Below, in pieces: positions 18,073-47,321 of a DNA stretch of 64,000 bases (the first letter of the stretch is position 1; each line of letters opens with the position of its first letter). Position numbers and translations under genes: made by a program. The notes below the pieces were generated by a model. The model was not told the origin of the DNA, made no database searches, and saw nothing but the letters and a program-made list of their open reading frames with translations. The stretch comes from Aequorivita capsosiphonis DSM 23843 (GTDB lineage: Bacteria > Bacteroidota > Bacteroidia > Flavobacteriales > Flavobacteriaceae): positions 1 through 64,000 of the forward strand of contig NZ_AUBG01000002.1 of NCBI RefSeq assembly GCF_000429125.1, in the 5' to 3' direction.

Positions 18073-19017
18073 TTATTGCTCCGTTTGTATGGCTTTAAGG
18101 AGTTTTTTCATACTTGAATTAAATTCGTTGGGACCTACATCTATACAAAGACTGTTTTGCAGCCTTGCAATAATGCCGTCCATATTATTTTTCAGGTTTC
18201 GCGTACGTATTAGTTTACTATCCAAATCTCTTGTATTTATATCTTTTTGGTGAGATTGAAGTATTAAGAGTTCAAGTTCTTTAATTTTTATTTCAATTTT
18301 AGTTACCTTTTTTATAGTATAATCATTCTGAAAAAAATCATTATCTAGATAACACGCAATAAACTTTTTGTGATCTAGATAAGCCTGAAGGAATAAGGTG
18401 TCTACAGTTTCCATACCTACCCAAGCAGATTCCAAACTTGAATTAGATATCAAAGAGACCGTTACTGTAGCAACCTTTAGCGACGTCTGTATAAAGGTCT
18501 TTATGTCTGTACCAGCTTCCATATTCTCCGTGTCAATAATTACATCAATTTTGGCCGCTTCTATAGCTTCTTTTATTTTTAAGGCAACATCGACGTCATT
18601 ATGATTATAGGATATAAAAACGCAGGGGGGAAGTGGAGGTAGATCGCCCTTTTTATACCAAATTAAATAAACTAAAAGAATTTCTAATGGAATTAAGAAA
18701 TAGGTAGATGTCTTTATAACCTGAATATCTTCTAATCCTATCAATGCATCCAATATAATTACGCCTACGATAGCACTAACAAATAAAGCCGATAAAATTT
18801 TAAGTCCTCGTATGTTTGTTTCAAAACTTTTATTTTTTGTTAGAAATAATAATAAAATAGGTGGTAAATAAAGGATTAAAAACCATAGCCAAACATAAAC
18901 CTTAAAATCGCCTAAGAATCCTGTAGCTGTTTGTATTACTAGAAAAAGAAATGAAATTGCAAATCCAATTAATATCAGGTTCAATAGGCTTTCTCTTGCT
19001 GTTTTAACTTTAGCCAT
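18073..19017 (-). CDS. Membrane-anchored TIR-domain protein
   Basis: 314 residues. Four hydrophobic spans lie in residues about 10-120, followed by a TIR domain from about 132 (PCVFISYNHNDVDVALKI, then a VIIDTENMEAGTDI box and SLISNSSLESAWVGMET). The TIR glutamate expected for NAD-cleaving members is E203, after W199. A charged helical tail (KIEIKIKELELLILQSHQ) follows. An even number of spans places the TIR domain in the cytoplasm if the N-terminus is inside. Its ATG shares one base with the TAA of the caspase gene upstream (TAATG), so the two are translationally coupled. The same gene order recurs at 41.5-45 kb. NADase or adaptor signalling is inferred, not shown. Confidence 0.82.
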   Translation of the reverse strand: MAKVKTARESLLNLILIGFAISFLFLVIQTATGFLGDFKVYVWLWFLILYLPPILLLFLTKNKSFETNIRGLKILSALFVSAIVGVIILDALIGLEDIQVIKTSTYFLIPLEILLVYLIWYKKGDLPPLPPCVFISYNHNDVDVALKIKEAIEAAKIDVIIDTENMEAGTDIKTFIQTSLKVATVTVSLISNSSLESAWVGMETVDTLFLQAYLDHKKFIACYLDNDFFQNDYTIKKVTKIEIKIKELELLILQSHQKDINTRDLDSKLIRTRNLKNNMDGIIARLQNSLCIDVGPNEFNSSMKKLLKAIQTEQ

Positions 19018-20516
19018 TAGTCTTTAATTAGTTCTTGTCCTAATTTTGATTGTTCAATATGCTTAATACCTGTATTAGAACTTGGAAGCTCAAGTTCAGC
19101 GCTGATGGTGTTTTGCGATAATTTGTATTCATAAATAAATGCTCTTACCTGGTAATTACTCGCATCTTTAATCTTAATTTCCGGGGGTAGTGGGTTTGAA
19201 GGACCTGCAACCCAAGATAAGGCTTCCTGCCTACTTACTTTAGCTTCAAAATCTTGATCCAAGCCAATGTCTGTAACAGAGAAAACAAAGACCCTAAAAT
19301 AACCTTCGTTTGGCATGAATACTGATTTTAAAATTCTTATAAAGAAATTTTCAGTATCCGCTTCAGTATCTTTCAAAAGTTCCTCTTTCCAGCGATAGGG
19401 ATGTTTTTTTGATGTTGCATCTACATTAATTTGTTCTAGTTGGGTGGCAATTGCATACCCATGATTTAGTCCATCCTTACTAATACCATAATAGCGTATT
19501 TCTGAATAACCATGCTTTCGTAATGCAGAAACCAGCAGGTTATTTACATCTTGAAGGGTTTCACAATTCTCAAATGCAGTTGCAAAAACATCTTGATCCA
19601 CCATTCGTGAAGGTGTAGGAGGTGGCCAAGGAAAGTTTAATCGCTTCACGATATTTAAATTTGGTTCAACTTTACCAACCCATGTAAGACCTTCTGTTAA
19701 ATCACCAAAAACAGTAATATCTGCTTTTCCGCCTGATATTTCTTTCATCGCTATTTTTGTACCTAGGTAAGTATTTTTTACGGAAGAATAAGGTTGTAAT
19801 CTTTCTGAAAAAGTATCGGCAAACAAGCTATTTTTTTCATCAGTACCTAATCCAATTAACCTTTTAGCCGACCGAAAGGAAATAAAAGTATGTTCCGGCA
19901 TATCTGTTGGATTCATAAAACATGGTTCATCGTTTTCTTCTCTAGTTTTAAAAGGAAAATTATTAGCATAGCAACCATCAATAGAAATAAGGTTTTGTTT
20001 GGTTGTATCTACATTTTCTAAATAGAAATCTAAATTTAAAGTTTCTAGTGCTATTGCATTCTCATCCTCAAGTTTTGCATCAATAGGAACCAGGTAGTTT
20101 TTTCCATTGATTTGAACTGTATGACCTGCGTAATAAAAAAATGAAATTTTCGCTTCTTTACTAGTTAGAATAAAACGACGTATCGCTGATTGCATTTCTA
20201 TTTTTGTAGCATTCTCAACTTTAGTTACATTAAAACCTAGATTAGATAAATTTTTGCCAATTAAATTTATATCCTTAATTGGTGTGTTTAATGCATTAAA
20301 ACCTTGATAAGAAGCGTTCCCAATTAAAAGCACCATAAGTTTAGTGCTGTCTTGTTGTCCCTTTTTAGCAATAACTTTTTCAGTTTTATTAACATCTCCA
20401 TTATTATATTTTTTAGTTTTAAATTTATTACGATCAATCTGAGAAAAACCCATACTGAAACTAAGGGCAATAAGAAGCACTATAGACGATCTTATGATTT
20501 TGATTAATGTTTTCAT
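19017..20516 (-). CDS. Exported caspase-family (peptidase C14) protein
   Basis: 499 residues. The signal peptide (hydrophobic 9-22, cleavage near FSQ, residues 24-26) directs it across the inner membrane. Residues about 57-270 form a caspase/metacaspase domain: MVLLIGNASYQGFNALNTP, the catalytic His in YYAGHTV (H132) and the catalytic Cys in ISIDGCYA (C182). Both members of the dyad are intact. The remainder (about 290-499) is unassigned and could be a sensor or substrate domain. Exported caspase-like proteases are known in Bacteroidota (for example gingipain- and clostripain-related clans), but pairing with a coupled membrane TIR protein is unusual. It probably acts in the periplasm. Confidence 0.82.
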   Translation of the reverse strand: MKTLIKIIRSSIVLLIALSFSMGFSQIDRNKFKTKKYNNGDVNKTEKVIAKKGQQDSTKLMVLLIGNASYQGFNALNTPIKDINLIGKNLSNLGFNVTKVENATKIEMQSAIRRFILTSKEAKISFFYYAGHTVQINGKNYLVPIDAKLEDENAIALETLNLDFYLENVDTTKQNLISIDGCYANNFPFKTREENDEPCFMNPTDMPEHTFISFRSAKRLIGLGTDEKNSLFADTFSERLQPYSSVKNTYLGTKIAMKEISGGKADITVFGDLTEGLTWVGKVEPNLNIVKRLNFPWPPPTPSRMVDQDVFATAFENCETLQDVNNLLVSALRKHGYSEIRYYGISKDGLNHGYAIATQLEQINVDATSKKHPYRWKEELLKDTEADTENFFIRILKSVFMPNEGYFRVFVFSVTDIGLDQDFEAKVSRQEALSWVAGPSNPLPPEIKIKDASNYQVRAFIYEYKLSQNTISAELELPSSNTGIKHIEQSKLGQELIKD

Positions 20517-41499: not shown

Positions 41500-42528
41500 C
41501 TATTGATCTGCATAACGCACCGTAATCCAAACAGAGTTATCTGCATAATTAGTGACTCCCGTTACCAAAACTTTCTGGCCACTAATTATAGTTTCACCGT
41601 GAAGTATTTGACGGTCCAGAACACTAAATATATTTTGGGAACTTATAGCTGAAAGCAAATCACCGGCTCTCGGCATTTCCAGATTGTCTTCACCAAAGGT
41701 AAGTTTACCTTCTAAATCAAGATATAATGTTTTTGTAAAATACCGTTTACCACTAGCATCCCAAAATAAAACCATTCCTTCATTTGGCATTAGTAAATCC
41801 AAGGAATCCAAAACTTGTGCGTAATTTTCATCCCTTCCATAATTTCGCATATACTTGATATATCCTTCAATCGAATTGGCATCTAGTGCATCTTCCCAGT
41901 CGGGATTCAGGCTTGCTTCGTCTGTTTGAGAGATATCATTAGTCTCGTTAGCGTCCACAGCTGGAGCTTCGTCATCTACGCATTGTATCAATATAAAAAT
42001 AAACAATACCAATGAAACGATACCTCCAATGATATAAGGAGTTATCTTCTTAGATTTTTTTTGTGGAATTGAATTTACATTGGTAGTCGCCACCGGGGGC
42101 TTAAAAGTTCCTTTTGGAACCGATTTATTTTCTTCTGCTAATTTTAAAGTTAGTTTCAAATCATTTACTAAGCGTTCAAAACCAGCCTCGTGGCCCATTG
42201 TGGTAAAATCTACAAATTGCTTACGCGCCAGCCGCATCGGCACCTCACATTCCTCTATTTTTATAGGGTTTACGTGCTTGTCTAGACCAATGGCGTATGA
42301 AATTTCATCTTTTACATTCTCTGAAGCCACGGAAGTTTGCGAAAGGATCAATACCACCGCATCCGCCTTTTTGAGTTCTGATTCTATGGTGTCATCCCAA
42401 TCTGTTCCGGTGCGAATGTTTTTATCGAACCACACTTCAAACCCCTGTTTTCTTAAGGCATCTACCAAGGATGATACATATTCTGTATCGCGTCTGGAAT
42501 AACTGATGAAAATTCTTTTTCCGGCCAT
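41500..42528 (-). CDS. TIR-domain protein with single membrane anchor and extracytoplasmic tail
   Basis: 342 residues. The TIR domain at 1-125 contains FISYSRRDTEYVSSLVDALR, VWFDKNIRTGTDWDD and VLILSQTSVASENVKDEIS; E75 is the position of the NADase glutamate. One span (about 163-182, IIGGIVSLVLFIFILIQC) follows a K-rich stretch, so the TIR domain is cytoplasmic and residues 190-342 lie outside. That tail is unassigned. It is last in a four-gene operon after the caspase fusion, 36 bp past the small PGDYG-like gene. Compare the four-span TIR protein at 18073. Confidence 0.85.
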   Translation of the reverse strand: MAGKRIFISYSRRDTEYVSSLVDALRKQGFEVWFDKNIRTGTDWDDTIESELKKADAVVLILSQTSVASENVKDEISYAIGLDKHVNPIKIEECEVPMRLARKQFVDFTTMGHEAGFERLVNDLKLTLKLAEENKSVPKGTFKPPVATTNVNSIPQKKSKKITPYIIGGIVSLVLFIFILIQCVDDEAPAVDANETNDISQTDEASLNPDWEDALDANSIEGYIKYMRNYGRDENYAQVLDSLDLLMPNEGMVLFWDASGKRYFTKTLYLDLEGKLTFGEDNLEMPRAGDLLSAISSQNIFSVLDRQILHGETIISGQKVLVTGVTNYADNSVWITVRYADQ

Positions 42529-42564
42529 GACTTTAGTTATTTAGTAAGATTTATTCTGAATGTT

Positions 42565-42789
42565 TTATTCCTGCAAATCGTAAGTTCTTTTAAAAATAGC
42601 GTCATCACAAATGTACTTTTCGCCATCAATACCAATCATAAGCCAGTCGCCAGCCTTACCTGTTACAGTACCTTCAAGGGATTCCACCTGAAAAGCTTCT
42701 TGGATCTGGATACATTTAACCGGGATAGGTTTCTTGGTTGCGGTATTGAAATCGAAGTCAGGAGTTTCGTTGAAGCGGAATTTGAGCAT
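42565..42789 (-). CDS. Small PGDYG-like protein
   Basis: 74 residues. The C-terminal half, AGDWLMIGIDGEKYICDDAIFKRTYD, matches the PGDYG pattern (a beta-rich small domain of unknown role, often found next to restriction, toxin or regulatory genes). The N-terminal KPIPVKCIQIQEAFQVES segment is typical of the same proteins. It lies between the caspase fusion and TIR genes with gaps of 21 and 36 bp, so it is in the operon. Possible function: a regulator or substrate of the neighbouring protease. Confidence 0.72.
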   Translation of the reverse strand: MLKFRFNETPDFDFNTATKKPIPVKCIQIQEAFQVESLEGTVTGKAGDWLMIGIDGEKYICDDAIFKRTYDLQE

Positions 42790-42810
42790 AGTATAAGAAT
42801 TTGATTGAAA

Positions 42811-45042
42811 TTACGACAAAAAATTGATTTTTAGAAATTTGATAAATGGATCTTCTGGATTGTCAGTTTGCATTAGACTAACGTAAGCATTATAAGCATT
42901 GGAATGAATTGAAATCTTTTCACGTAATCCGGCCATTGCTGCGGCTTTACTATAGTTTTCCTTCGCTCCTTCAAAATCGCCTTTATATAGCAAAGCTTCT
43001 GCAATAGTTGCGAATTTCCAAAGACTGGGAAATGGATCTTGTTCCGTAGCTTGGTATGCTTGATCTGCAAACGCAGTCATATCGCCCTTCTCTCCTTTCA
43101 TCAAACTGAGAAAAGCCAAGTTGATGGCCTGGTAATAAATTTGGGAATAATCTTTTTTCGCTTCAGAAATTTGTAGTGCCTTGCTGTAATGTTTAAAAGC
43201 CATCTGTAAGTCTTCCGCCAAAAATGTTTTTAAATATTGCCGTTTATATCTTCCGCCCATGATTCCCAACAAATTCGAATTATCTTTTGCCGTGGGATTC
43301 TCTATTAAAATGTTCATTGCCTCCTCTTCCCTACCAGCTGCTTCCAAAGCATAGATCAATCGTTCTAAGCCTTTGTTGTCAAGGTCTTTTAGCTTGGGAA
43401 GAAGTGTGTTTATCACTTCATTATACGCACCCATGGCAATGTTAATTTCCTCTTTGTTTGAAAATTTATTTAAAAAGCTCTGATTGGTCAAGGTTTTTAA
43501 AATGATGCGATAACCATCAGTATCCTCATCTTTAATTTGAACAATGGAAAAGTGATCTCCATCTATTATTTCCTGGTATTTCTTCGGAAAAGGTTTCAGA
43601 CTTGAAGAAATTGGCACAAACTCATCTCTTGTAGCTGCGATGCTTTTAAAGATAAAGGGATATTCGTTCTGAAACTTCTCGTTCCAAGCATCTCTAAGCT
43701 TTCGCATATACGGACTTCCCTCCTTTAGCTCCTTTTCATCATTGCCATAAGTGAAGAATTTTTCTAACTGAATTTCCGGTAATCCATTGCTCGGTGTTCC
43801 GAAGAATAAAACATGACTGATTCTGTCTAAATCATTTTTATCCAGTTCCAATAAAGCTTGCTGTGTTATAATTCCACCTAAGTCGTGGGCTAGAATTGCG
43901 ATCCGTTTATACTTGGAGAATTTGTTTCTAATAGAAGTAAGCAGATAATCTGAGTTTCTTTTGATATCACTGGCACAGGCCCAAATATTTTTACCCATTT
44001 CGGGGACTATATTCCCACTGTAACCTAAGGGGAATATATCCCAACCTTTCATCGCTTCATTGGCCATTAGTAAATTTGGCGCTTCGGAAAAGGTATGTTC
44101 GGCATCGCCAGAAAATCCGTGGACAAATAGAATAGCGCTATTGCTATTTTCTGTTTCTCTAAATGTGTTAACTGGTTCTTTTTTAGTTGTATTAGATGCT
44201 TCTGCTAAAGTGATTATTTCGTCTTCATCAGCATTTTCTTTTATCAAATTTGAGACAAAACTCACCACAAAATCTTCATAGATCTGAAGATTTGCAAACG
44301 GATTTTGGTCTGGATATATTTCGGGAACTCTCTTAAATAAGTATTGAACCACTTCAAAAATACGAACAAAGGGATCATTCTTTTCGTGCTTACTATCTCC
44401 TCTTAAAACTTCAATCATACATTGTGTAAAAAGGCTATTTTCTTGACCTTCTAAAACAACGCTCAATTGATCTGCGCGACAGGCGGAAACGATGGTCATT
44501 CCCCGACCGTCGTCTAAGTTCTGGGCTAGACCATCTGCATTGGTATGTTTGGGTTGCAGTGCTGAAACGCCCGCCGTCATTCCTGCGGCGTGACAACAGT
44601 CTAAAAAGAAGATCAATCTCCGTGATTTTAACTGTGATATTTTATATTTAATTTCTTCAGCCTTTACCCACGTGGTTTTATAATTTACTGGGTCATAATC
44701 ATACGGGCAGAGATGAAAATACTTTTGGTTTTCGTACTCGGGCTTCTTTTTTGCCGGATCTTTTATAAAAGTATTGTCGCTGTACATCCCGCCGTGACCG
44801 GAATAATAGAGTAATACTGAAGACTTTTCGTCGGTCCGTTCCAATAAATCATCAAAGGCTTTGAGGATGCCATTCCGGGTTGCCTTTTTTTTAGTAATTA
44901 TCTTTATATTTTTCCTGTAGTAGCTCCCGTGCTCTTTATCGGCTAAGATTTTATATAAAGCTTTGGCATCGTTAACAGTTTCGGGTAAATCATCACTGCC
45001 AACCCCAATTATAAGTGCGTGCGCATTTTTTAACTTGCTCAT
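42811..45042 (-). CDS. Caspase / alpha-beta hydrolase / TPR fusion protein
   Basis: 743 residues. Residues 1-265 are a caspase domain: HALIIGVGSDDLPET, H83 in YYSGHGG and C150 in FLDCCHAAG, so the dyad is intact. Residues about 300-470 resemble an alpha/beta hydrolase (AILFVHGFSGDAEHTF), but the elbow reads AHDLGG (385-390), with Asp387 in the place of the usual Ser. Residues about 535-743 are TPR-like helices (DLQMAFKHYSKALQISEAKK, ALLYKGDFEGAKENYSKA), similar to the TRAFs-binding-type region linked to signalling proteins. There is no signal peptide, so it is cytoplasmic. Its partners are the membrane TPR gene before it and the TIR gene after it. Confidence 0.85.
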   Translation of the reverse strand: MSKLKNAHALIIGVGSDDLPETVNDAKALYKILADKEHGSYYRKNIKIITKKKATRNGILKAFDDLLERTDEKSSVLLYYSGHGGMYSDNTFIKDPAKKKPEYENQKYFHLCPYDYDPVNYKTTWVKAEEIKYKISQLKSRRLIFFLDCCHAAGMTAGVSALQPKHTNADGLAQNLDDGRGMTIVSACRADQLSVVLEGQENSLFTQCMIEVLRGDSKHEKNDPFVRIFEVVQYLFKRVPEIYPDQNPFANLQIYEDFVVSFVSNLIKENADEDEIITLAEASNTTKKEPVNTFRETENSNSAILFVHGFSGDAEHTFSEAPNLLMANEAMKGWDIFPLGYSGNIVPEMGKNIWACASDIKRNSDYLLTSIRNKFSKYKRIAILAHDLGGIITQQALLELDKNDLDRISHVLFFGTPSNGLPEIQLEKFFTYGNDEKELKEGSPYMRKLRDAWNEKFQNEYPFIFKSIAATRDEFVPISSSLKPFPKKYQEIIDGDHFSIVQIKDEDTDGYRIILKTLTNQSFLNKFSNKEEINIAMGAYNEVINTLLPKLKDLDNKGLERLIYALEAAGREEEAMNILIENPTAKDNSNLLGIMGGRYKRQYLKTFLAEDLQMAFKHYSKALQISEAKKDYSQIYYQAINLAFLSLMKGEKGDMTAFADQAYQATEQDPFPSLWKFATIAEALLYKGDFEGAKENYSKAAAMAGLREKISIHSNAYNAYVSLMQTDNPEDPFIKFLKINFLS

Positions 45043-45100
45043 TTTTATATAGATAAAAGTTATCTTCGAGAAAGCTGAAAGCGCAGTTAAAGAGCTGAAA

Positions 45101-47077
45101 TCACTTCCAAAAGTTCATAACTTCCTCGAACTCCTTAGTTTTATTATACTTTAAAAATTGGGGGTCATTTTTAAAATATTTCCAGTGGTATTTATGTCCA
45201 TTGGCTACTGCCTTCAGTAAATGTTTATACATTTTAATGGTATTATCTGTGGCGGCATAATATTGGGCCAAGGCATAATCCACATCTCCGAACTGATAAT
45301 CGGCTCTTAAATTCTCTAAAGAATTGATGTTTTTTTCGGCATTGGAGTTCTTCCCAAGTTTAAAATTACTTATCGCTAATTTCGCCAAAACCTCAATATC
45401 TCTAGGGTTTTTAGTATGGATTTCTTTTAAGATTTTCTCGGCCTTTGCATATTCTTCCTTATAAAAGAAGGCATAGGACAGCATTTTAGTATCTAAATTT
45501 CCTTTTTCGGTATTGATGATTATATTGAAGAATTCATCTGCTTTGCTTCTATTATTTTTCAGCAAAAACTCCTTCCCTACCTGTAAATACAATTCTTGAG
45601 TTTCGGCTGGGGTTGCCGTTATTTCTATCTTTCTTAAAAATTGGTTGAGATCTTCTATTTTATTTCCCCGAACATAAGCTATGGCCAATGGCCTGTTCAA
45701 GGATTTAGCTTCGTCTTCCTGCTGCGCCTTTTCAATGTTTTGAATGGCAGTTGTGTATTTGCCCAATTCTATATCTGCATAGGCTTTCACATAGATCCGT
45801 TCAATGCAATGAGAGCAATTTTGCAGGCTCATGCTGTCCATATTAACGGTTTTGTAAATTGCTTCTACGTCTTTGGGTCGGTTAACGTATTGCAAGGCAA
45901 TAACCATTGCGGTTTTATTGGTTATTAGATCGAAAGGTGCAATATCATACTCTTTTAAAATTGATTTATACACGGTGCGGTTATCCCCTCTTAAAAGCGC
46001 TTGATACATATTTAGTAGGTTCAATTGCCGATTGTTTGAATAGGAATCTGGTTTTATTAAATTTAATAGGGAATCGGCTTTTTTATATTCACCTTGGTTG
46101 TAATAATGGGCAACACGCAAAACTTTGGGTTCAAAATAGTCGGAATCTGCGGCAATAGATTTATTGAGTAATTCTATATACTCTTTGTTGTTATTGTCGT
46201 TGCTGTATTTGGCTTCAAGGAGATATTTATAAGCATCATATTTTGGAGGGGTTTCTTGGAGCATCAATTTTTTTTTGTCTTCCGTAACAAAATACCCCGT
46301 TATGGATTCATTGAGATCTTCAATGCATTGCAACGGATTTTCCTTGGAACATTCCGAAGATTTAAAGGAAATAAGGGTTTTATTGGAGTTCCCATCTGTA
46401 ATGGTTCCTTGAAAAAGCATTTCGTCGTTTTTAAGATAGAAATTTCCCGAAATGATTTTGCTGGGGTTTAGATATTGCTTGACAACTGCCCTTTCGTCAT
46501 CTTCGGTGGCTGTTCCTTTAAGGTTGATTTTGTATTCGTCAATTAAATCTTGGGTAATCACTTGCGCTACTTGGTTTTCCGTAATTCCGTGAATAATCCA
46601 GTCGGAAGCCATCTTGCTTACAATGTTATATTTTGGATCGCCGGTATTGTTGCCAAAACGTAAAACTGCAATTTTATCATTGCTTTCTATTTTTGCAATA
46701 GCCTCATTATTTTCTTGGGAAAAATTTTTATCGACAATAAAAAATACGGTGAGAACACAAATGGAAGTGATTATTCCCCAAAAAGTAAAATATATTTTCT
46801 TAAATGCCGCTTTTTTCTTTATGTCCTTTTCATCAACTTCTGCTTCGGCTTTTTGTAATGGAGCAAGTCGAAACCTCCATAGAAAAAAAATATAGAGTGG
46901 AAAACAAAGTAGCAAAACAATAATTAAAAAAGTAACAGATTTATGAGGAAGCCCCAAAGGTTGCCATGTTACCGAAAGCACCTGCAATATCACCCACGCA
47001 GATACCACATATATGGACAACATTTTGAAGACTTCCTTTTCATTGCATTGCCTAAAAAAGGAATTAAGCTTCATCAT
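45101..47077 (-). CDS. Membrane TPR protein with FlgO-like domain
   Basis: 658 residues. Two spans (about 20-66) and a third (about 95-113) are followed by a FlgO-like segment (KIAVLRFGNNTGDPKYNIVSKMASDWIIHG, near 139-168) and TPR helices over most of 280-640 (for example AYADIELGKYTTAIQNIEKAQQED and YAFFYKEEYAKAEKILKEIH). This layout is typical of membrane TPR regulators that, in other bacteria, carry an N-terminal DNA-binding or cyclase domain, missing here. It is first in the operon, 58 bp before the caspase fusion gene. A sensor or scaffold role for the TIR/caspase locus is plausible. Confidence 0.78.
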   Translation of the reverse strand: MMKLNSFFRQCNEKEVFKMLSIYVVSAWVILQVLSVTWQPLGLPHKSVTFLIIVLLLCFPLYIFFLWRFRLAPLQKAEAEVDEKDIKKKAAFKKIYFTFWGIITSICVLTVFFIVDKNFSQENNEAIAKIESNDKIAVLRFGNNTGDPKYNIVSKMASDWIIHGITENQVAQVITQDLIDEYKINLKGTATEDDERAVVKQYLNPSKIISGNFYLKNDEMLFQGTITDGNSNKTLISFKSSECSKENPLQCIEDLNESITGYFVTEDKKKLMLQETPPKYDAYKYLLEAKYSNDNNNKEYIELLNKSIAADSDYFEPKVLRVAHYYNQGEYKKADSLLNLIKPDSYSNNRQLNLLNMYQALLRGDNRTVYKSILKEYDIAPFDLITNKTAMVIALQYVNRPKDVEAIYKTVNMDSMSLQNCSHCIERIYVKAYADIELGKYTTAIQNIEKAQQEDEAKSLNRPLAIAYVRGNKIEDLNQFLRKIEITATPAETQELYLQVGKEFLLKNNRSKADEFFNIIINTEKGNLDTKMLSYAFFYKEEYAKAEKILKEIHTKNPRDIEVLAKLAISNFKLGKNSNAEKNINSLENLRADYQFGDVDYALAQYYAATDNTIKMYKHLLKAVANGHKYHWKYFKNDPQFLKYNKTKEFEEVMNFWK

Positions 47078-47201: not shown

Positions 47202-47321
47202 ATGGCTCAAACACCAGATAAAAAACCAGCCACAAATAAGGCTGCACAATCAAAACCCGCTAAAGCTACGGCAAAACCAAAGGTTAAACCAAAACCAGGA
47301 GCAGATATAAGACCAGATTAG
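47202..47321 (+). CDS. Small lysine/alanine/proline-rich protein (39 residues)
   Basis: ATG at 47202, TAG at 47319-47321. The composition is dominated by Lys, Ala, Pro and Thr in near-repeats (KKPATNKAAQSKPAKATAKPK), like the tails of bacterial H1-type nucleic-acid-binding proteins. It is too short to judge by coding statistics alone, but a terminator-like hairpin follows at 47350-47388 and nothing overlaps it. A chromatin or RNA-associated role is inferred from composition only. Confidence 0.45.
   Translation: MAQTPDKKPATNKAAQSKPAKATAKPKVKPKPGADIRPD

Follow-up and report, generated by a model that had tools for sequence, protein, structure and literature searches.

A candidate envelope-anchored TIR/caspase module in Aequorivita capsosiphonis: a conserved TPR-caspase core with an independently lost TIR partner

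The first 64,000 nucleotides of contig NZ_AUBG01000002.1 of Aequorivita capsosiphonis DSM 23843 (here, the window) contain a four-gene locus encoding a membrane TPR protein, a caspase-alpha/beta hydrolase-TPR-S fusion, a small PGDYG protein, and a TIR protein with a single membrane span. With about even confidence, we read this locus as an envelope-anchored TIR/caspase defense or programmed-death module that resembles type IV Thoeris signaling. Its gene content and order are conserved, its catalytic residues are retained, its parts are lost independently of each other, and the outer domain of its TIR protein is exchanged. Animal and plant immunity relies centrally on TIR and caspase pathways, many TIR domains cleave NAD+, and TIR-caspase signaling in bacteria is newly known; Rousset et al. 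reportedly described type IV Thoeris in Science in 2025 as a TIR protein plus a caspase-like protease. New here are the pairing of TPR and caspase genes with independent loss of the TIR gene, the swapping and splitting of the outer domain, and a hydrolase with aspartate at the nucleophile position under purifying selection.

Open reading frame (ORF) calls made for this analysis define the gene set, and they confirm four minus-strand genes separated, from the TPR to the TIR gene, by 58, 21, and 36 bp, with the PGDYG gene between the caspase and TIR genes on the same strand. This is the layout proposed in a first-pass annotation of the window made from its letters, and the caspase-hydrolase-TPR fusion, the PGDYG-like protein, and the single-span TIR protein named there were all recovered by profile searches and hydropathy. 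The features are as follows (aa, amino acids; TM, transmembrane).
45101 to 47077, minus strand: membrane TPR protein, 658 aa, with three TM helices followed by a TPR region of ~540 aa predicted to lie outside the cytoplasm (ORF call; Pfam TPR repeats; hydropathy)
46733 to 47032, minus strand: the three TM helices of the TPR protein, residues 16 to 115 (hydropathy)
42811 to 45042, minus strand: caspase-alpha/beta hydrolase-TPR-S fusion, 743 aa, no TM helix (Pfam, hydropathy, structure model)
44335 to 45021, minus strand: caspase domain of the fusion, residues 8 to 236, dyad H83/C150 (PF00656, 76.6 bits)
43483 to 44160, minus strand: alpha/beta hydrolase domain, residues ~295 to 520 (DUF676, 22.2 bits; cut-off, 20.3)
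43882 to 43884, minus strand: residue 387 of the fusion, Asp in the window (alignment of 61 fusions)
43108 to 43425, minus strand: TPR-S domain, residues 540 to 645 (PF20308, 49.2 bits; cut-off, 27.6)
42565 to 42789, minus strand: PGDYG small protein, 74 aa (PF14083, 27.0 bits, equal to the cut-off)
41500 to 42528, minus strand: one-span TIR protein, 342 aa (ORF call, Pfam, hydropathy)
42166 to 42513, minus strand: TIR domain, residues 6 to 121, with E75 (TIR_2, 100.5 bits; Foldseek TIR matches)
41977 to 42033, minus strand: single TM helix of the TIR protein, residues 166 to 184 (hydropathy)
41512 to 41904, minus strand: outer domain of the TIR protein, residues 209 to 339, three helices plus an all-beta part (structure model)

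The caspase and TIR genes occur together far above chance. A search of 397 genomes of the family with a profile of the fusion returned some match in 72, of which 31 were full-length matches in 25 genera. Genera named among the carriers include Gelidibacter, Algibacter, Lutibacter, Polaribacter, Leeuwenhoekiella, Croceivirga, and Aureicoccus. Across 46 fusion genomes, 33 of 115 TIR_2 matches lay on the same strand within 3 kb downstream of a fusion, compared with ~0.05 expected for genomes of an assumed 3.3 Mb. This neighborhood search excludes random association of the two genes, the outcome that, by the first-pass annotation, would have refuted its own proposal. Sixty-one distinct fusions were retained after those sharing the same final 300 residues were merged (genomes that are nearly identical may still be represented twice), and their loci carried the TPR gene upstream in 56 cases, PGDYG downstream in 42, and TIR downstream in 39. 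One TPR gene counted as present is broken into three frames (locus L061; L numbers are locus labels), while three of the five loci that lack it lie at a contig edge (L056, L069, and L163) and the other two show none upstream (L054 and L134). The same order holds outside Aequorivita, where 30 of 43 fusions have a TIR gene in the downstream run. Seven shorter caspase-TPR-S proteins without the hydrolase had the same TPR gene upstream in 7/7 cases, a TIR gene in 2/7, and PGDYG in 0/7; TPR-S scored above cut-off in the one short caspase scanned (L167).

Twenty-eight Aequorivita genomes (G numbers; G000 is the window's own genome) allowed the site to be read between the same core genes, with TPR scored at the site only and not across whole genomes. 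All four genes, in the order TPR-caspase-PGDYG-TIR, were present in nine genomes (G000, G001, G004, G006, G012, G013, G016, G025, and G027), TPR-caspase-PGDYG without TIR in two (G002 and G014), and TPR-caspase alone in six (G003, G005, G010, G011, G017, and G019). Three genomes had PGDYG-TIR without a fusion (G008, G021, and G026), one had PGDYG alone (G022), and four sites were empty of all four genes (G009, G015, G023, and G024). The contig ends after TPR-caspase in G007 and at or near the site in G018 and G020; whole-genome searches of the latter two found neither the fusion nor this TIR, with TPR and PGDYG sought at the site only. Overall, the fusion was present in 18 of 28 genomes. When G007, G018, and G020 were left aside, TPR and caspase were together in 17 genomes and both absent in 8 (P = 9e-7), and TIR occurred with PGDYG in 12, with PGDYG alone in 3 and neither in 10 (P = 1e-4). 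Caspase and TIR were both present in 9 of 27 genomes, with caspase only in 8, TIR only in 3, and neither in 7 (Fisher P = 0.42; in this 27-genome test, G018 and G020 were scored as lacking TPR and PGDYG). At the Aequorivita site, TPR and caspase are kept or missing as a pair, and TIR is lost independently of them. In G021, a 23-residue remnant of the caspase C terminus just before PGDYG is direct evidence that the caspase was lost. If the genes were present at the root of the genus tree, there were ~7 losses of caspase, ~8 of TIR, and ~6 of PGDYG; these counts are approximate, because the tree was built from eight flanking proteins with missing rows, has weak nodes, and omits G007, and the PGDYG figure takes that gene as absent in G018 and G020.

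The core is maintained by selection where the TIR gene is gone. G017 and G010 have lost the site TIR and have other TIR_2 matches elsewhere in the genome, and the ratio of nonsynonymous to synonymous substitution rates (dN/dS) between them was 0.108 for the caspase, 0.060 for the hydrolase, 0.108 for TPR-S, and 0.087 for the TPR protein. Values of 0.06 to 0.11 rule out the caspase as a relic where the site TIR is missing. Four further genomes (G003, 89% complete; G005; G011; and G019) contain the fusion with no TIR_2 match in the genome. For G005/G003, dN/dS was 0.017 (caspase), 0.011 (hydrolase), 0.093 (TPR-S), and 0.052 (TPR), at synonymous rates (dS) of 0.9 to 3.4, near saturation.

Catalytic residues are retained on both sides of the locus, including caspase Cys150 and TIR Glu75, which the first-pass annotation had singled out for mutation: H83 and C150 are kept in 60/60 fusions covering these positions, and E75 is found in 46 of 48 TIRs, with Q in the other two. 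The part of the TIR protein beyond the membrane is far more variable. Four Lys/Arg residues in the 15 positions before its TM helix and none in the 15 after predict, by the positive-inside rule, that the C-terminal domain is outside the cytoplasm; we infer the topology of this protein and of the TPR protein from their sequences. The structure model (mean predicted local distance difference test score [pLDDT], 83.1) shows the TIR domain, the TM helix, and a confident outer domain (10-residue pLDDT means mostly 89 to 97), with a predicted template modeling score (pTM) of 0.43, so the placement of the domains is uncertain. The TIRs of SPARTA, SARM1, and AbTir matched the model in Foldseek, as did Hydra TRR-2 and the adaptors MyD88 and MAL; the best 50 matches were all TIR, with no named fold relative for the outer domain among them. 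Over the TIR domain, the window protein shares 92% identity with L033 and 94% with L034, while the outer parts share 24% and 22% (forced pairwise alignment); the corresponding domain/outer-part identities are 92/45% with L032 and 88/43% with L022, and L024 has a Fib_succ_major domain as its outer part. Where fewer than 110 aa follow the TM helix, a small TM protein of 185 to 260 aa comes within 25 bp in 13 of 16 cases, compared with 0 of 30 TIRs with a longer post-TM part. A profile of these 13 separate proteins matches the window TIR protein (E = 1.4e-10) and many others, with no match to L033, L034, or L024. Given the profile matches and the contrast between TIR and outer-part identity, the outer domain exists in fused, split, and replaced forms.

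Three of the short caspase-TPR-S genes have no TIR following; behind them are two genes of ~150 and 103 aa and a protein of 191 to 215 aa that by eye resembles the separate outer-domain protein (L165:4644-6080, L167:7904-9330, and L168:5160-6538); two proteins scanned from these downstream genes gave no Pfam family. The third TIR gene of the window's genome encodes 503 aa and is followed by a 742-aa gene (L177:7536-11272; G000:C2), and L147, L149, and L157 have TIRs of similar length (508 to 529 aa) next to the fusion on the other strand.

The reading that we favor would work as follows. The membrane TPR protein and the cytosolic caspase-hydrolase-TPR-S protein would form the core unit, the one-span TIR protein with its exchangeable outer domain would be a receptor, and the small PGDYG protein, whose matches in the genomes searched were confined to these loci, would be an accessory. 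Either the outer domain or the TPR protein may detect a disturbance of the envelope, e.g., phage entry or damage, upon which TIR domains would cluster and cleave NAD+. TPR-S would read an NAD-derived product, or direct contact, and the caspase so unleashed would cut cell proteins and kill the cell. Because selection maintains the core in genomes that have lost the TIR, the caspase probably has a second, TIR-independent input, most simply the TPR membrane protein. If true, membrane-spanning TIRs with swappable outer domains would provide surface-type sensing upstream of a caspase. Natural core-only and TIR-only strains make the caspase's need for TIR directly testable.

Several observations weigh against a single module of this kind. 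No TIR lies within the 3-kb downstream strip in 17 of the 46 fusion genomes (29 have one), and 22 of 61 fusion loci have none in the downstream run; for 5 of the 61, that run continues up to the end of the available stretch. Core and TIR presence are uncorrelated across the 27 Aequorivita genomes, three of which keep PGDYG-TIR without a fusion; outside the genus, PGDYG and TIR are themselves unassociated (both in 21 of 43 loci, PGDYG only in 10, TIR only in 9, neither in 3; P = 0.73). The site is a stable chromosomal one within the genus, unlike that of many mobile defense systems. A TIR fold by itself is also not proof of NAD+-cleaving (NADase) activity, since the adaptors MyD88 and MAL match as well.

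A rival account, which we consider somewhat unlikely, is that the locus is a plain type IV Thoeris system: during phage infection, a single cyclic ADP-ribose isomer made by the TIR would suffice to switch on the caspase, with the other proteins as helpers. The conserved catalytic residues of both enzymes agree with it, as do the presence of a TIR NADase and a caspase-like protease in one operon in that system, as described in PMC12847820, and the TIR gene that adjoins TPR-S in 2 of 10 loci from other Bacteroidota (L186, where the TIR is weak and matches only our own profile, and L191, where it is above the ThsB_TIR and TIR_2 cut-offs). A caspase that depended on the TIR alone sits poorly with the four genomes that keep the fusion without any TIR_2 match, with the dN/dS of 0.01 to 0.09 in G005/G003 (dS near saturation), and with TIR genes kept where the fusion is gone. 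Membrane anchoring, PGDYG, and the TPR partner also fall outside the available description of type IV Thoeris.

It is less likely still that two independent units share one site, the TPR-caspase pair performing stress-linked proteolysis and the TIR a separate NADase defense. The independent loss of caspase and TIR in the genus would fit, and so would the distance correlations, which reach 0.91 for caspase-TPR compared with 0.57 for caspase-TIR (25 loci; outside the genus, 0.78 over 16 loci and 0.54, respectively). Units that merely shared a site would not be expected to keep the same order outside the genus or to place 33 of 115 TIRs in the strip downstream of a fusion, however.

The PGDYG protein of the window scored 27.0 bits against a PF14083 cut-off of 27.0 with hmmscan and 25.1 in the genome search, and PF14083 was above cut-off in 5 of 46 fusion genomes, the profile being weak here, so that members will have been missed. 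Matches of any strength occurred in 27 of the 46 genomes, one each, and 27/27 were downstream of a fusion, no more than 200 bp away in 25 cases and at 4.2 and 5.0 kb in two; the one at 5.0 kb sits directly behind the second fusion of its genome. A fixed PGDYG-TIR pair holds in Aequorivita (12/12 TIR sites) and was rejected beyond it, where PGDYG is missing from 9 of 30 TIR loci and TIR from 10 of 31 PGDYG loci; since the two are unassociated there, a PGDYG-TIR unit is at most an Aequorivita feature. Among 50,697 phage records, 398 contain relatives of PGDYG at E ≤ 0.01, with no named function among the best 30, and the protein matches phrog_419 (E = 2e-11). The family was mentioned nowhere in the literature searched, and a genomic context is now given for it, a family with relatives in many phages. 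Our guess is that PGDYG regulates the TIR or the caspase or is a lure related to phage proteins. Such a role belongs to a more elaborate circuit, akin to Toll-like receptors, in which the receptors would be one-span proteins, constant in the TIR and exchangeable in the outer domain, that report envelope attack to a caspase whose TPR-S sensor has kin in ASK1-type proteins of animals, PGDYG being a guard or brake that phage look-alikes mislead. We consider this quite unlikely; the lack of association between PGDYG and TIR outside Aequorivita lowers its odds.

No relative of the module was found in viral contigs (pattern-based scan) or phage records, and 19 plasmid records matched ≤36% of the query, so a phage- or plasmid-borne module was rejected. 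The syntenic site in Aequorivita and this absence from viral sequences would suit envelope quality control or development through regulated proteolysis without cell death, but that non-immune role is very doubtful given the repeated losses that the genus tree implies for caspase (about seven) and TIR (about eight), assuming that its root had both, and given the rapid change of the outer domains, which resembles recognition of a target that itself changes.

Within the fusion, the Peptidase_C14 score (76.6 bits; cut-off, 21.4) and the His/Cys dyad place the first domain in the caspase family. The hydrolase is less conventional: among 61 fusions, D473 and H497 are each kept in 61/61, and the nucleophile position 387 is S in 36, D in 17, and G in 8. 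Asp occupies it in 17 of 18 Aequorivita fusions, and Gly in G002 and seven others. Because of Asp at 387, the window hydrolase has no Ser-His-Asp triad even though H497 and D473 are present. Asp-nucleophile catalysis occurs in some alpha/beta hydrolases, and the D387 domain may use it or have a noncatalytic role. A decaying relic is ruled out by purifying selection on the domain (dN/dS of 0.06 in G017/G010) together with the invariant D473 and H497. In the model of the whole fusion (mean pLDDT, 80.8; pTM, 0.66), the three parts matched caspase-fold chains, lipases, and TPR proteins in Foldseek; by sequence, the TPR-S part retrieved nothing from the PDB beyond weak TPR matches, and a sensor function for this domain is suggested by its Pfam name alone.

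The TPR protein had been proposed as a membrane TPR/FlgO-like sensor. TPR repeats with three TM helices bear out its first half, and the FlgO likeness was dropped: the 658-aa protein matched only repeat families in Pfam up to E = 0.1, with no FlgO or TolB, and both were absent among the 25 of 45 families listed for 20 relatives. Nine Lys/Arg residues lie in the 30 positions between helices 2 and 3 and one in the helix 1-2 loop, which by the positive-inside rule predicts that the TPR region is outside the cytoplasm; the cysteines conserved across 20 sequences (C243 and C251 in every one, C421 and C424 in nearly all) fit an extracytoplasmic location. An extra gene of 150 to 260 aa, recognized by size only, lies between TPR and caspase in 24 TPR-bearing loci of the 61. 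Two such genes (181 and 208 aa, with a TM helix; L037:10325-10870 and L038:10253-10879) were seen there, and the two intervening genes scanned gave no Pfam family at E = 0.01, with only a trace in one.

The own genome (4.04 Mb) has three TIR_2 and two Peptidase_C14 matches, with both caspases beside a TIR. The second caspase belongs to a pair at 18073 to 20516 of the window, comprising a separate caspase (499 aa, with a signal-like N-terminal helix) and a TIR protein with three predicted TM helices. The first-pass annotation took the shared caspase-then-TIR order as a sign of a recurring module. The order is indeed the same, and the four-gene locus does recur, in 25 genera; the 18-kb pair, however, is a different system and not a copy. 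Its caspase has no TPR-S or hydrolase match and no significant BLAST similarity to the fusion (best, 21.6 bits), the TIRs of the two loci share 28% over 90 aa, and the 18-kb caspase occurs in 2 of 28 genus genomes compared with 18 of 28 for the fusion. The 18-kb-type locus of G001 also has a TIR match ~450 bp downstream.

Other genes were seen near these loci. A 39-aa Lys/Pro/Ala-rich ORF at 47202 to 47321 (plus strand) is divergent from the TPR gene, and similar ORFs, with PGANINPG or PGANINPT as their last residues, occupy the equivalent position in L025, L027, L029, L030, and L031. A promoter and terminator scan of the locus gave signals no better than shuffled sequence. Downstream of the TIR in L064, L150, and L154 are a 257-aa gene and then a second caspase-like gene of 505 to 514 aa that matches the fusion profile at 515 to 686 bits; L064 and L150 are apparently the same locus.

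None of the literature matches listed describes this module, and the available text of PMC8195603 deals with related conflict systems other than this one. Among proteins with TPR-S, a giant 1842-aa DUF7379-LCAT-CHAT-TPR-S protein of the window's own genome (L197:7386-12914; G000:C11) likewise joins hydrolase, caspase-clan, and TPR-S parts in one chain, differing in length and domain order; none of its neighbors listed in 16 kb is TIR-like when read by eye. Of nine genomes searched, with kinship uncorrected, TPR-S in a frame of that giant size was found in G000, G008, G021, G022, and G026, with a weak Peptidase_C14 match in G021 and G026, and was not found in G003, G005, G011, or G019. Such a protein is another possible reader of the TIR signal. 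Proteins of the TPR-S/ASK1 region (PF20308 and PF13281, MAP3K_TRAF_bd) also share TPR-S with the fusion: four of five bacterial TPR-S proteins from other Bacteroidota match PF13281 above cut-off (narrowly in L191, 26.8 compared with 24.1), and two start with an 'MPFG' region where the window protein has its caspase. Neither the window fusion nor the short caspase L167 matches PF13281.

Among described caspase systems, the parts of Kaur et al. 2020 (PMC7159879) available to us report that caspases are always accompanied by an alpha/beta hydrolase gene in VMAP systems, and they describe a membrane EACC1-caspase pair and MoxR-vWA ternary systems. The fusion recalls the former in its caspase and hydrolase parts, here joined in one chain, and the EACC1-caspase pair in being membrane-proximal, since some relatives have a one-TM protein close to the caspase. 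The gene 5' of the window caspase encodes TPR and not EACC1, the EACC1-type caspase model NF047832 scored 76 bits against a cut-off of 140, and no EACC1, MoxR, or vWA family was among the Pfam matches of the proteins scanned. EACC1 kinship of the gene between TPR and caspase was likewise rejected, with no EACC1 Pfam match to E = 0.05 in two members. NCBIfam matches included no type IV Thoeris model, and the PADLOC models were of 2023. Type IV Thoeris itself, in the accessible portions of its description, has a TIR NADase and a caspase-like protease in one operon (PMC12847820; also cited in PMC13373217), with TIR-made N7-cyclic ADP-ribose (N7-cADPR) activating the protease (PMC12847820). By gene layout, the window locus shares with it a TIR gene and a caspase-like protease gene in one apparent operon. 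Unlike that system as described, the TIR here has a predicted membrane anchor and a variable outer domain, the caspase is fused to a hydrolase and TPR-S, TPR and PGDYG partners are present, and caspase and TIR are lost independently.

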